In this document: piece after piece, positions 7,323 to 62,198 of the stretch
How positions within the stretch are numbered: position 1 is the first letter of the stretch
How the letters are laid out: each line of letters starts with the position of its first letter
Origin: Candidatus Saccharibacteria bacterium CG2_30_41_52
Lineage (GTDB): Bacteria > Patescibacteriota > Saccharimonadia > Saccharimonadales > Saccharimonadaceae
NCBI GenBank assembly: GCA_001873625.1
Contig: MNZN01000001.1
Span: 62,001-126,000, forward strand
DNA length: 64,000 nucleotides
Direction: 5' to 3'
Position numbers and translations under genes: made by a program
Notes under the pieces: model-generated
Told to the model about the DNA's origin: nothing
The model's input: the letters and a program-made list of their open reading frames with translations, nothing else
Databases searched by the model: none

Positions 7323-7426
7323 GGTCACCTGTAATTTTCTTTGAAAATTCAGTCGACCCCGCCTCAGTCGGTGACGTTCGTCATCCGGCTTCCGGCCTTG
7401 CGAACTGCCATTCTAGGCAGTTCTCA
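7323..7426 (-). repeat. T1 structured element, copy 1 (104 nt)
   Basis: Read on the minus strand it begins TGAGAACTGCC and ends GTGACC. It has an 8-bp hairpin GAACTGCC/GGCAGTTC, a conserved core CGCAAGGCCGGAAGCCGGAT, GACTGAGGCGGGGT, and a 3' hairpin CTGAATTTTC/GAAAATTaCAG with one bulged A. It interrupts a decayed tRNA T-arm (GAAGG on one side, AAGTCCTTC on the other). Two further copies lie at 9648 and 9965. Confidence 0.8.
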
Positions 7427-7442
7427 CCTTCACGCCCTCGGG

Positions 7443-7469
7443 GTGAGGTCAAGTTCTTTCTCGGGCGCT
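7443..7469 (+). pseudogene. Decayed tRNA-Leu 3'-end fragment
   Basis: GTGAGGTCAAGTTCTTTCTC and the following GGGCGCT resemble the T-arm and acceptor strand of tRNA-Leu (GTGAAGGTTCAAGTCCTTTCTCGCGT), with substitutions and a lost base. It adjoins T1 copy 1 and is one of several mirrored tRNA fragments here. Confidence 0.4.
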
Positions 7470-7513
7470 AGCCTGGACTATCTCTCCGATTTGCCATTCT
7501 AGGCAAATCTCCG

Positions 7514-7610
7514 CTCCTCCGTTCTATCGCGAAAAAATGTAAACACTTTTTCGCTCCATTCACTTCGCGACCCTTCACTTCAAATTTGCTTTCAGCAAAT
7601 TTCGTGAAGG
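7514..7610 (+). repeat. T2 structured element, copy A
   Basis: About 97 nt beginning CTCCTCCGTTC. It contains hairpin GCGAAAAA-ATGTAAACAC-TTTTTCGC, the conserved CACTTCGC, and a terminal nested hairpin AAATTTGCTttcAGCAAATTT inside CCTTCAC/GTGAAGG. It shares its order and the ATGTAAACAC loop with copy B at 57505, although the stem sequences differ. It ends against the T-arm of a mirrored tRNA fragment. Orientation of transcription is unknown. Confidence 0.65.
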
Positions 7611-7695
7611 TTCGAGTCCGCACGGTACTAAAGAAAATAGAGACCAAACGGTCTCTATTTTCTTTGGTACGCGAGAAAGGACTTGAACCTTCACG
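7603..7695 (-). terminator. tRNA-Leu 3' end plus terminator palindrome
   Basis: A long imperfect inverted repeat centred near 7649. Its core AAAGAAAATAGAGACC/GGTCTCTATTTTCTTT is a terminator-type hairpin for tRNA-Leu(TAG). The pairing continues outward, so the last ~35 bases of the tRNA gene are mirrored on the other side (CGTGAAGGTTCGAGTCC). Confidence 0.7.
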
Positions 7696-7748
7696 CCCGG
7701 AGGCACCAGCTCCTAAAGCTGGCGTGTCTACCATTCCACCACTCGCGC
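7665..7748 (-). tRNA. tRNA-Leu(TAG)
   Basis: 84 nt with acceptor GCGCGAG/CTCGCGT, class II long variable arm, anticodon arm CCAGC-TTTAGGA-GCTGG (anticodon TAG, reading CUA codons), T-arm GAAGG-TTCAAGT-CCTTT, and an encoded CCA end. Its 3' third is mirrored downstream in the palindrome. Confidence 0.93.
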
Positions 7749-7825
7749 ATACATGTGACTTTTTGGTAACTTGGTTATTATATCAAATTATCTACCTCTT
7801 ACACAAGCTTTAATGTCTTGAGTTT

Positions 7826-7862
7826 TCTACTATATACCATCTACAACCTACTATCTACCATC
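7826..7862. repeat. CTACTA-rich intergenic repeat
   Basis: TCTACTATATACCATCTAC and the following ACCTACTATCTACC belong to a recurrent low-complexity family that also occurs near 29840-29960, 49234-49324 and 58886-59013. It sits between tRNA-Leu(TAG) and the flavoprotein gene. Confidence 0.6.
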
Positions 7863-7916
7863 CAGCTTGTGCTATCATAAATACAGATAAATGATGGATG
7901 GGGAATATACAGGATA

Positions 7917-9554
7917 ATGAGTAAAATTACACAATATCTCAATGAACATATTTTAGGTGAAGTCACTAGCGCCGAATCTGTACGTCAACGATTTTCTCGT
8001 GACGGCAGTGTGCTAAGCGTCACGCCAGAACTAATTGTTAGCCCTCGGGTTACAAACGACATTCGTAAAGTGGCTAGATTCTCTTGGCAATTAGCTGAAA
8101 AAGGTCACGTTCTACCACTGACGGCTCGTGGTGGTGGTTCAGATAAAACCGGCGCATCCATCGGCAAAGGTATTATTTTAAATACAATTGCTCACCTTAA
8201 TAACATCATCTATATAAACCTCAAAAGTAAAGACCAATTTGTCCATGTTCAACCCGGTGTTAAATTTGGCGCATTAAATGAAACTCTAAAATCACATGGA
8301 ATGATAGTTCCGGCTTATCCGACTTCATCTGCATACAGCACTGTTGGGGGTGCAGTCGCCAATAATGCTAGTGGCCCGCAATCAGGGCTATATGGAACGG
8401 TTGGCGATTGGGTTAAGCGATTAGAAGTAGTGTTGGCAAATGGTGACTTAATTGAAACAAATCGTATCAGCCGACGTGAATTGGACAAGAAAAAAGGTTT
8501 GCAATCATTCGAAGGGGAATTGTATCGTAAAATTGATGGAATTATCGAAGACAACCAATCGTTGATTGCTGACCAAATAGCTAATAATGAACGTGATAAT
8601 GTTGGATATTCTGGCATTGCCAAAGTTAAAAACCGCGATAGTTCGTTCGACCTAACGCCATTAATTATTGGTAGTCAGGGAACGCTGGCTATTATATCTG
8701 AAGTTGTTCTGCGTACGGATTATTACAGTAGTGAAGAATCCATTATTGTTGCAGCATTTAGTGACGCTGAGGCGGCTAGGGACGCAGCTGATGTACTGGT
8801 CACAACTCAACCAACTGCAATTGAATATATTGACGGTGAATTATTTAATATTGCGCATAGTTATGGCAAGAAATATGCTTTTATGACTGAATCTAATCCA
8901 AGTGTCGGTGCAGTTTTATTTATTAGTTATAACGATTTTAGCGATGGGCATCGCAAGCGCAAAATGAAACATGCTCTTAAGAAACTATCGAAATTTAGCG
9001 CCACAATCTTAACTAGCAAAGATCACTCAATCGATGAACTATACGCTATTCGTGAAGTTAGCTCTGTTATATTGCAAACAGAGGCAAGAGATGAATCAAT
9101 GCCATCACTTATAGATGGAGCCTCAATTTCATCAGAGCGACGTGAAGAGTTTATACTAGCACTCACAGAATTGGCTAAAAAACACCACATTAGTTTACCT
9201 GTAAGTATTAACTGGTTGGACGGCGTAGTCCATACACGAACTACTATGCAACTACATAGTGTTAGCGATAAACAAAAGACTTTCAAATTGATTACTGATT
9301 ATGCTGAATTGGTTACAAAATATGGTGGAACTTTCTGTGCCGAATCAGGCGAAGGTCGCCTCAAATCAATGGCAGCCTACGCACAATTAAGTGACGATGT
9401 ATTAGAAATCTATACTCAAATTCGAACAGCATTTGACCCGTTTAATACTTTGAATCCAGGTGTAAAACAAAAATCTGACATAAAAACATTGGTTGCGCAG
9501 CTAAATCCAGACTACGACCTAGCAGATTTTGCAAAATACTCCCCACAGGGATAA
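7917..9554 (+). CDS. FAD-linked oxidase/dehydrogenase (GlcD/LldD-like)
   Basis: 545 residues. The N-terminal PCMH-type FAD domain shows TARGGGSDKTGAS (about residue 70), HVQPGVKFGALNETL and PTSSAYSTVGGAVANNASG, the FAD pyrophosphate-binding segment. The C-terminal FAD-oxidase_C region ends with FDPFNTLNPGVK, typical of D-lactate/glycolate dehydrogenases. A fused 4Fe-4S domain is absent. The substrate is most likely a 2-hydroxy acid, but this is family-level inference. No neighbour indicates the pathway. Confidence 0.85.
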   Translation: MSKITQYLNEHILGEVTSAESVRQRFSRDGSVLSVTPELIVSPRVTNDIRKVARFSWQLAEKGHVLPLTARGGGSDKTGASIGKGIILNTIAHLNNIIYINLKSKDQFVHVQPGVKFGALNETLKSHGMIVPAYPTSSAYSTVGGAVANNASGPQSGLYGTVGDWVKRLEVVLANGDLIETNRISRRELDKKKGLQSFEGELYRKIDGIIEDNQSLIADQIANNERDNVGYSGIAKVKNRDSSFDLTPLIIGSQGTLAIISEVVLRTDYYSSEESIIVAAFSDAEAARDAADVLVTTQPTAIEYIDGELFNIAHSYGKKYAFMTESNPSVGAVLFISYNDFSDGHRKRKMKHALKKLSKFSATILTSKDHSIDELYAIREVSSVILQTEARDESMPSLIDGASISSERREEFILALTELAKKHHISLPVSINWLDGVVHTRTTMQLHSVSDKQKTFKLITDYAELVTKYGGTFCAESGEGRLKSMAAYAQLSDDVLEIYTQIRTAFDPFNTLNPGVKQKSDIKTLVAQLNPDYDLADFAKYSPQG

Positions 9555-9610
9555 TTCAATCATTGAAAAACTCTTATCTTAACGTTATGCTTGTTAAGGT
9601 ATAGATATAT

Positions 9611-9647
9611 GCGCGAGTGGTGGAATGGTAGACACGTCTGGTTCAGG
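9611..9647 (+). pseudogene. Interrupted tRNA-Leu(CAG), 5' half
   Basis: GCGCGAGTGGTGGAATGGTAGACACG matches the 5' half of the intact tRNA-Leu(CAG) at 9805. The anticodon arm then reaches TTCAGGT, where T1 copy 2 begins. After T1, CCTGGTGCCAG could continue the anticodon stem and variable arm with the length of the intact gene, but no T-arm or acceptor 3' strand follows. It is either a broken gene or one needing splicing. Confidence 0.65.
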
Positions 9648-9749
9648 TGAGCAGTGCAAGTCTGCACTGCGCAAGGCCGGAGCCTGGATTGCGAACGCAA
9701 CCAAGCGAGGCGGGGTCGCAAAAATTTCAGAAAGAAATTTATTGTGACC
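9648..9749 (+). repeat. T1 structured element, copy 2 (102 nt)
   Basis: Begins TGAGCAGTGC and ends GTGACC. First hairpin GCAGTGCA-AGTC-TGCACTGC, core CGCAAGGCCGGAGCCTGGAT and GAGGCGGGGT, 3' hairpin CAAAAATTTC/GAAATTTaTTG with a bulged A. The stems differ in sequence from the other copies but keep pairing, which is evidence for a functional structure. It is inserted in the anticodon loop of the tRNA-Leu 5' half. Confidence 0.82.
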
Positions 9750-9804
9750 TGGTGCCAGGCCACTAGAACAAAATGCACTTTGCAGAATAATGTTACATAT
9801 ATAT

Positions 9805-9890
9805 GCGCGAGTGGTGGAATGGTAGACACGCTAGATTCAGGTTCTAGTGCCAGCAATGGTATGGAGGTTCAAGTCCTCTCTCGCGTACCA
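9805..9890 (+). tRNA. tRNA-Leu(CAG)
   Basis: 86 nt with acceptor GCGCGAG/CTCGCGT, anticodon arm CTAGA-TTCAGGT-TCTAG (anticodon CAG, reading CUG), long variable arm, T-loop TTCAAGT, and encoded CCA. It is nearly identical in its 5' half to the interrupted copy at 9611, so the two are tandem duplicates. Confidence 0.93.
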
Positions 9891-9956
9891 AGAAGATAAG
9901 ACGGTTTTTATGCCGTCTTTTCTTCTTGGTACCCCAAGGACTTGAATCGACATACC
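9858..9956 (+). terminator. tRNA-Leu(CAG) terminator and mirrored tRNA 3' end
   Basis: Inverted repeat centred on AAGACGGtttttatgCCGTCTT, followed by a T-rich stretch, acting as terminator. Pairing extends so that GGTATG...TTCAAGTCC in the tRNA faces GGACTTGAATCGACATACC downstream. Confidence 0.7.
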
Positions 9957-9964
9957 TATGGAAA

Positions 9965-10066
9965 TGAGAACCGCAAGTCTGCGGTTCGCAAGGCCGGAAG
10001 CCGGATAACGAACGTCACCGACTGAGGCGGGGTAGCAGAAAACTCAGAATGAGTTTTACTGTGACC
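9965..10066 (+). repeat. T1 structured element, copy 3 (102 nt)
   Basis: Begins TGAGAACCGC and ends GTGACC. Hairpin GAACCGCA-AGTC-TGCGGTTC, core CGCAAGGCCGGAAGCCGGAT identical to copy 1, 3' hairpin CAGAAAACTCA/TGAGTTTTaCTG with a bulged A. It interrupts a decayed tRNA-Leu T-arm (TATGGAAA before; AAATCCTCTCCCACGTACCA after). Confidence 0.82.
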
Positions 10067-10069
10067 AAA

Positions 10070-10143
10070 TCCTCTCCCACGTACCAAATAAAATAGAGAC
10101 CAAACGGTCTCTTTTTATTTGGTACTGTGAAGGCTCGAAACCT
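10070..10143 (+). terminator. Third palindrome: tRNA remnant 3' end with terminator
   Basis: ACGTACCAAATAAAATAGAGACC pairs with GGTCTCTTTTTATTTGGTAC, and the mirror continues into GTGAAGGCTCGAAACC, a degenerate antisense T-arm. Its core is identical to the one beside tRNA-Leu(TAG), so the units are duplicates. Confidence 0.55.
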
Positions 10144-57468: not shown

Positions 57469-57504
57469 GTCAACCGAATAAGTACATCACCTCGCTTTGC
57501 TCGT

Positions 57505-57600
57505 CTCCTCTGTTTGCTTATTAAAATATGTAAACACATTTTAATTTTACTGCACTTCGCCGAACTCTTCGGCTTTTTGCTTTGCAAAAAGTTCCGAAGG
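57505..57600 (+). repeat. T2 structured element, copy B
   Basis: CTCCTCTGTTTGC start, hairpin ATTAAAAT-ATGTAAACAC-ATTTTAAT with the same ten-base loop as copy A but a different paired stem, then CACTTCGC, then nested hairpin around TTTTGCtttGCAAAA inside CTTCGG/CCGAAG. It ends against a mirrored tRNA T-arm, as copy A does. Confidence 0.65.
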
Positions 57601-60973: not shown

Positions 60974-62198
60974 TCATGCCTCCTGTATGGTGGTCATTAT
61001 GCAAACGCCAGCGCAGATCGCGAACAGCGTTGATATAGTACAAAAAGGCATCGTAAGGTGATTTGTATGGGCTAAAGTAGGCGTGAACGTCGCCATCGCT
61101 AAACCATTTGGTACACATGTAATATACGTGGTCAGACGTCTGTAGTTTGCGCCAATCACTGATTAGGTCGACATCGCCGGTCATTATGACGTCGTTTTCC
61201 ATTGAATAGATATATTTCAATGCCTCTTGTTGCATAGTATTACCCATCCAGGCTGTCAAATCGCGTTCAGTATCAGCCCATGTGACAGTATTTGGCATAC
61301 TAATCTCGCCAACGGGTTCAAACTCGGCGATTGCTTCGGACACTGTATAGAATGTGTTAATTGGGTTCTGCAACCATTTGCCGATAAAGGCTTCAAAAAA
61401 GTCAAAAATTCCAGTATCTTTCCATTGATGTTCGCCAAAGGTTTCATAATCCATGAACAAGTTAATAAGCGGCTGATTATCAATTGATGCGTTAGCCCAA
61501 TCGTTATAGGTGTCAGCCGAGAGTGGCCATGCAGACCAGTTTTGGTTGCTAAAACGAAAGGCGATGTCATCACTGAGGCGATAGTTTTTAAGTAGTAATG
61601 AAATGTTTTTTGTACCAGTTGGTCGATAAACATAGTTAGGAGAGCGCCATTCCAAAATCGGGTCCCAGCCTTCAGCCAAAATACCTTTGAACCCATAATC
61701 ATCAGCCCATTTTGCCAATGAATCGTTGTATGCTAATTCGGTATTACGGAAGACTGATGTTTCAACACCAAATAACTGGCGGACTTTGGCCTTGTGAGCT
61801 TCGACCTGGCGTACAAACTCAGTTCGGCTATAGAAAAAGGCAAGTGAGTGATAATACGTTTCAGCAACGATTTCAACGCGACCAGTTGCAACTAATCTCT
61901 GGAAGCTGGCAATTACATCTGGCGCCCACATTTCAGCTTGCTCCATGAATGTACCAGTAATACTCATTGATACTTTAAATTCATGATGAATCGCAAGTAA
62001 TTTTTCCAACACAGCATTCATCGGACGATATGATTTTTCGGCAACTTTTTTAAAGACCTGCTCGTTATTGCGTTCAGTATTATAATCAGGCTCATTAAAA
62101 TAATCATGTTTAGTAGCCGTATCAAATACGCTGTACTGACGCACGCGGAATGGTTGGTGTACGTGCAGATAAAGTACTATACCGCGTTTGCTAGTCAT
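60966..62198 (-). CDS. Glycoside hydrolase family 57 alpha-amylase-like
   Basis: 410 residues. Family motifs: LHVHQPFRVR at the N terminus, EIVAETYYHSLAF, nucleophile region VFRNTELAYND, acid Asp in FMDYETFGEHQ, and a C-terminal TWADTERDLTAWMGN helical part. GH57 enzymes cleave or branch alpha-1,4-glucans. Cytoplasmic. It lies one base downstream of the GT4 gene and overlaps GH15. Confidence 0.93.
   Translation of the reverse strand: MTSKRGIVLYLHVHQPFRVRQYSVFDTATKHDYFNEPDYNTERNNEQVFKKVAEKSYRPMNAVLEKLLAIHHEFKVSMSITGTFMEQAEMWAPDVIASFQRLVATGRVEIVAETYYHSLAFFYSRTEFVRQVEAHKAKVRQLFGVETSVFRNTELAYNDSLAKWADDYGFKGILAEGWDPILEWRSPNYVYRPTGTKNISLLLKNYRLSDDIAFRFSNQNWSAWPLSADTYNDWANASIDNQPLINLFMDYETFGEHQWKDTGIFDFFEAFIGKWLQNPINTFYTVSEAIAEFEPVGEISMPNTVTWADTERDLTAWMGNTMQQEALKYIYSMENDVIMTGDVDLISDWRKLQTSDHVYYMCTKWFSDGDVHAYFSPYKSPYDAFLYYINAVRDLRWRLHNDHHTGGMNG

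Follow-up and report, generated by a model that had tools for sequence, protein, structure and literature searches.

A putative non-autonomous structured insertion element in partial tRNA gene copies of Saccharibacteria and other bacteria

Group II and group III introns start with a GUGYG-type sequence, end with AY and carry a 3′ hairpin with a bulged branch-point A that lies 7-8 nucleotides (nt) from the end. Repetitive extragenic palindromes (REPs) and REPINs are short hairpin repeats that occur in many copies and form stem subfamilies with compensated bases, and some of these families have no dedicated transposase (PMC3733652). REPs are palindromes that measure 20-40 nt and bear a GTAG or CGTC tag (PMC3733652). 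The loops of tRNA genes are standard targets of integrases, and integration leaves tRNA fragments behind (PMC8371274, PMC9897764). Here we describe a structured element that is present in three copies on a 64,000 nt stretch (hereafter the window; positions 62,001 to 126,000 of contig MNZN01000001.1) of Candidatus Saccharibacteria bacterium CG2_30_41_52. The element has a conserved fold of three hairpins and replaces three bases in a partial duplicate of a neighboring tRNA gene. We consider it, with a probability of about 0.5, to be a small non-autonomous hairpin-structured insertion element that is aimed at loops and junctions of stable-RNA genes. We found no description of it in the literature.

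A sequence-only reading of the window had proposed three copies of one structured element. All three are present, with boundaries refined to 7324-7427 (copy A, minus strand), 9647-9748 (copy B, plus strand) and 9964-10065 (copy C, plus strand, first base mutated to A). In unconstrained folding each copy folds alone into the hairpins H1, H2 and H3 (z-scores of -5.6 for A, -5.0 for B and -3.3 for C) and, as that reading had stated, the stems differ among the copies yet remain paired, while H3 keeps its bulged A. The structure drawn by hand agrees with that from RNAalifold. Its further claim of selection on structure is borne out by additional copies, in which the covariation holds. Specifically, 97.6% of the pair cells pair in an alignment of 26 copies and 20 of the 32 pairs show double changes; none of 500 shuffles was as good, and the signal was lost when pairing partners were slid. 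In 75 diverse copies 97.0% of the pair cells pair and 30 of 32 pairs show double changes, in an alignment that leans towards structure because it was fitted to the model. The element had also been assigned to no known RNA family, and the Rfam scan agrees: at the gathering score tRNA was the sole Rfam 15 match, both in the window and in 7 diverse loci, and at E<=10 the interval 9590-10130 gave tRNA and low-scoring sub-threshold families with no credible model of the element.

Element size ranges from about 78 to 157 nt and is mostly 90-112 nt. H2 contains a conserved GGCCGGA/GAGGC internal loop, and H3 has a G.U pair near its base and one bulged A 7-8 nt before the 3′ end. Of the 120 distinct elements that possess both ends as well as H1, 94 start with GTGAG and 87 end with GTGAC, and modules (H1, core and H3 types) are shuffled among copies. 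Two loci (L067 1500-1629 and L156 570-696) carry an extra hairpin in H2 or longer helices, which shows which of the helices tolerate insertions. A subtype of about 87 nt (loci L048, L049, L050, L052, L053 and L166) shares H1, GCAAGG and the G.U-containing 3′ hairpin GGGTCGCGGAACGTGACC and has a different middle, AAACCTTCCGA...TCGTGAAGTTT. No larger, cargo-bearing copy was found when the two core halves were searched separately across all fetched loci; apparent copies with long inserts were diverged core sequences or chance matches.

The element had been placed inside tRNA-Leu. The copies in the window do lie in tRNA-Leu sequence, but the working genes are uninterrupted and only partial duplicate arms beside intact genes are affected. 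Around copies B and C all features are on the plus strand. The left arm of copy B (9611-9646) consists of tRNA-Leu nucleotides 1-36, from the acceptor 5′ strand to the CAG anticodon, and forms the direct repeat D2 with 9794-9842. Copy B itself sits in the anticodon loop of this partial copy and, when both tRNA-Leu copies are compared, occupies the position of GTT (9841-9843) in the intact gene. Its right arm (9749-9769) holds the 3′ side of the anticodon stem followed by the short antisense fold-back CTGGTGCCAGGCCACTAGAAC. The intact tRNA-Leu(CAG) follows at 9805-9890, between copies B and C, with a terminator hairpin at 9891-9932 that is extended as a palindrome into an antisense T arm (inverted repeat I8, terminator scan). 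The T arm of tRNA-Leu(CAG) recurs in antisense orientation at 9937-9956 (inverted repeat I9, 9858-9877 with 9937-9956), ahead of copy C, which occupies the T loop of an incomplete 3′ copy of tRNA-Leu. The right arm of copy C, with the 3′ side of the T stem and the acceptor 3′ strand (10066-10084, inverted repeat I5), is followed by a second terminator hairpin (10081-10125; repeats D3 and I17, terminator scan) that is 92% like the terminator behind tRNA-Leu(TAG). Copy A (locus L041) lies 241 nt beyond the 3′ side of the intact tRNA-Leu(TAG) (7665-7748, minus strand), where it occupies the T loop of an incomplete tRNA-Leu arm, and alignment of its flanks with the intact copy shows that GTT was again replaced.

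These arrangements recur as two kinds of tandem unit. In the upstream unit the 5′ part of a tRNA is followed by the element, the 3′ strand of the same arm (often accompanied by an antisense fold-back), a spacer and the intact tRNA. In the downstream unit the intact tRNA is followed by a terminator, an antisense T arm, the 5′ strand of the T stem, the element and the 3′ strand of the T stem, sometimes with an acceptor strand and a second terminator added. Downstream units in other classes of Patescibacteria are simpler and lack H1, with the antisense T arm running directly into AGGCCGGA. The name tRNA-Leu proved too narrow, since many isotypes and a few other stable-RNA and protein-gene sites are used: host arms derive from Leu, Gln, Glu, Ile, Ser, Pro, Arg, Lys, Gly, His, Phe, Val, Met, Trp, Thr and Ala tRNAs, and element positions include the T loop, the D loop, the anticodon loop, the variable region, the junction of D arm and anticodon arm and the linker of positions 8-9. 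One partial tRNA-Gln (locus L075) holds two elements. Aligning the flanks to an intact copy nearby was possible for 53 of the 120 elements, and exactly three bases are replaced in 51 of them. The replaced triplet starts with G in all 51 cases (GTT in 21, GCA in 10, GGT in 10, others in fewer) and is referred to as GNN. This three-base replacement differs from the usual target-site duplication, and it excludes simple intron excision. A real intron in the tRNA was likewise rejected, with an intact copy adjacent and a sequence that excision would not restore.

The 825 kb genome of the window (Saccharibacterium) gave 19 blastn matches and 23 covariance-model matches. All but one of the latter 23 copies lie 21-241 nt from one of the 39 tRNA genes, and all 23 share the strand of the nearest tRNA; 18 of the 39 tRNAs carry an element. 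About 1.5% of the genome is within 120 nt of a tRNA. Within the genus the element was detected in 22 of 28 genomes, with 0 to 23 copies per genome, and in the element-free genome G010 tRNA-Glu has clean flanks. At the level of the class 71 of 393 genomes and 40 of 153 genera were positive, and in a sample of the phylum 31 of 380 genomes passed strict filters. The genomes searched are mostly fragmented metagenome bins, distant copies are undercounted because the covariance model was built from one genus, and the subtypes of about 87 nt or without H1 are incompletely sampled. A pattern scan of named genomes gave, among the matches listed, Saccharibacteria, Kaiser-, Nomura-, Yonath- and Berkelbacteria, Paceibacterota, Peribacteraceae, WS2 and Elusimicrobia. 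Matches in Streptomyces and Nitratireductor (L268, L285) lacked the element ends and were treated as chance. In 2.9 million viral contigs there was a single match, also without element ends and probably due to chance, and a phage origin was rejected on this basis.

Sites other than tRNA genes were also found. Six loci carry the element in a duplicated 5′ part of a predicted non-coding RNA near pth. This RNA (L120, L125, L132, L137, L140 and L154; Saccharibacteria) is apparently conserved, has the 5′ hairpin GAGCCTCCAGAGGGGGTGGGCACCGCTGGAGGCTC and gave no Rfam match. In a Kaiserbacterium elements flank a 5S rRNA gene on both sides. Near rRNA loci the Rfam matches were rRNA and group I introns; the latter lie in 23S rRNA genes (L242 1968-2301 and L249 3555-3796) from records of Kaiserbacteria and Nomurabacteria in which elements are likewise present beside 5S rRNA. 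Among protein genes, two kaiserbacterial loci (L236, L315) have the element at the start of a gene that appears by eye to be glycosidase-like, with the first codons repeated, and L156 has it at the 3′ end of a gene likewise labeled by eye as similar to elongation factor P, with a short direct repeat. In L246 (Elusimicrobia) and L273 the element lies inside helicase-type genes (Schlafen group 3 helicase domain) without tandem copies, in L246 at the would-be alanine codon of the DEAH motif. Splicing was rejected for these two copies, as the reading frame continues uninterrupted across the 126-nt element and both genes seem degenerate. Furthermore, some Elusimicrobia and similar records (L276 and L314, and by eye L288) carry the element antisense to the tRNA.

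Each of the known systems shares one or two features with the element and lacks defining ones. Similar to REP/REPIN-RAYT systems it is a many-copy hairpin repeat with compensated stems, but it is about 100 nt long, its three hairpins come with a conserved core and with GTGAG/GTGAC ends, its targets are tRNA loops, and Y1 genes do not track it. Miniature inverted-repeat transposable elements of IS200/IS605 or other insertion sequences are equally small, free of cargo and abundant; the element, however, has neither terminal inverted repeats nor a short target duplication at tRNA sites, replaces three bases instead, and occurs in a genus without TnpB. Bridge RNAs of IS110 and the reRNA of TnpB are also folded non-coding stretches with target-like flanks, as is the element, of which some copies are antisense to the target, but the genome of the window encodes neither IS110 transposase nor TnpB. 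Integron attC sites, compared by eye, are single folded hairpins with GTT/AAC core sites that go together with an integron integrase, whereas the element has three hairpins.

The sequence of the element folds, as RNA or single-stranded DNA, into H1, H2 and H3, and if it is a non-autonomous insertion element the folded strand might be the substrate of an enzyme or host process acting in trans. The GNN triplets that it replaces are mostly found where stable-RNA genes encode loops and helix junctions. The working tRNA gene is kept because the element comes with a tandem partial duplication, and such duplications may be kept since plain insertion into a single-copy tRNA gene would be lethal. Copy number, patchiness, module shuffling, sharp ends and diverse targets speak for mobility, and from these we infer that the elements move or have moved in the past. 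Near-perfect tandem repeats of about 95 nt (L066) and about 54 nt (L314) look recent, and a tRNA-Gln arm in L096 that is unlike its own tRNA is foreign-looking. The antisense copies in Elusimicrobia favor a target at the level of DNA rather than of the transcript. We tentatively suggest, as something slightly short of an even chance, that the element represents an undescribed structured mobile class, distributed across the ultrasmall Patescibacteria and extending to Elusimicrobia, that swaps a GNN triplet in loops of stable-RNA genes, spreads together with a partial duplicate of its target and uses neither a known transposase nor intron homing.

Several results weigh against a mobile element. 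No transposition event was seen. A search for a partner enzyme covered four protein families (TnpB, IS110, reverse transcriptase and Y1 transposase), none of which provided the enzyme, and a larger copy with cargo is also lacking. TnpB was found in 0 of 28 genomes of the genus and IS110 in 2 of 28, the genome of the window not being among them; reverse transcriptase (RVT_1) is absent from the genome of the window and from several element-rich congeners. Y1 is absent from the element-bearing genomes G004, G009, G012 and G391 and present in the element-free G010 and G395. Since presence and absence over the 28 congeners were uncorrelated with the element, all four families were rejected as partners. 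Genome G007 has a Y1 gene, with GGGGACGGTTCC repeats on either side, in a tRNA-flanking palindrome of the same kind just past an element; this placement shows that other insertions are drawn to the site and does not demonstrate that Y1 moves the element. At 2500-3200 of L220 a Y1 transposase gene flanked by GGGGACGGTTCCCC / GGAACCGTCCCC was observed immediately downstream of an element, inside a second palindrome derived from tRNA-Ile. No filled and empty orthologous pair was obtained via synteny, the methyltransferase gene beside tRNA-Leu not being syntenic in the genus. Antisense/sense T-arm palindromes without element were observed behind terminators at L213 (tRNA-Gly) and L172 (tRNA-Leu CAG of G005), and these are possible empty or pre-insertion sites.

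Furthermore, a probably orthologous tRNA-Gln(CTG) site in eight congeneric species keeps the fold with different, compensated stems (pairing in 96.9% of cells and double changes at 14 pairs, matched by 0 of 500 shuffles), its orthology being judged from identical position and fold-back rather than synteny. Upstream partial arms often show full identity with the intact local tRNA as far as nucleotide 1 despite differing flanks, the preceding 40 nt being near-random (32%). A fold that is kept and arms that are kept identical are unlike neutral relics. They would fit an RNA that serves the host, in which partial tRNA and element together form a cis-acting or processed RNA under selection, such as a leader or trailer with an influence on how the tRNA is transcribed or processed, and Glu and Gln 5′ units do recur in distant genera. 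We nevertheless regard such a host function as unlikely, at about the level of a serious minority view: 6 of the 28 congeneric genomes are without detectable elements, fewer than half of the tRNAs in the genome of the window carry one, 3′ copies in the window sit behind intrinsic terminators according to the terminator scan, non-tRNA sites occur, and the stems at one site could equally change through replacement by another copy. Mobile elements that are retained by selection, or repeatedly re-created, would reconcile the signs of mobility and of function.

It is improbable that the element is instead the leftover recombination site of a tyrosine integrase, an attachment-site relic of integrative elements. 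Anticodon and T loops are indeed targets of these enzymes, a partial tRNA copy is left next to the intact one, and the tandem units resemble attL/attR pairs. However, integrated cargo is missing between the repeats, which already weakened this explanation; in the genome of the window the 21-241 nt between intact tRNA and element hold no cargo with an integrase. D loop, linker and variable-loop sites, the exact replacement of 3 nt and the strong covariation of a conserved fold would also be unexpected, and the viral contigs offered no more than the one match mentioned above. Equally improbable is a degenerate group II/III-like mini-intron that moves by reverse splicing into stable RNAs. Its attraction lies in the GUGAG start (against GUGYG), the AC end and the 3′ hairpin with the bulged A, and in the fact that saccharibacterial copies prefer the sense strand of structured RNA genes. 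The likeness of H3 and the two ends to group II introns serves only as a lead. No Rfam intron or domain V-VI model matches even at E=10, removal of the element leaves three bases missing instead of an intact sequence, RVT_1 is lacking in the genome of the window and some Elusimicrobia copies are antisense to the tRNA. The insertion element remains our preferred explanation.

Another repeated insert, whose core resembles GTTTACAT...AACGGAGGAG...GCGA, was observed in the window at 7490-7575 and about 57480-57566 (both minus strand) and at loci L224, L202 and L198. It is placed like the element, after an antisense T arm and the 5′ strand of the T stem, and is found behind tRNA-Leu, tRNA-Tyr, tRNA-Met and others. 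It belongs to a different sequence family in the same niche.

To our knowledge the insertion rule, in which GNN is replaced and a copy of the gene is retained, matches no known transposition chemistry, and a new enzyme or ribozyme would therefore be indicated if our interpretation is true. In that case curated RNA models miss an element that is present on 18 of 39 tRNA genes of one genome, and the element may confuse tRNA annotation and assembly. It would represent an abundant mobile or regulatory RNA-like element in a large, barely studied part of bacterial diversity, and point to some process by which the essential ends of tRNAs are duplicated in minimal genomes.

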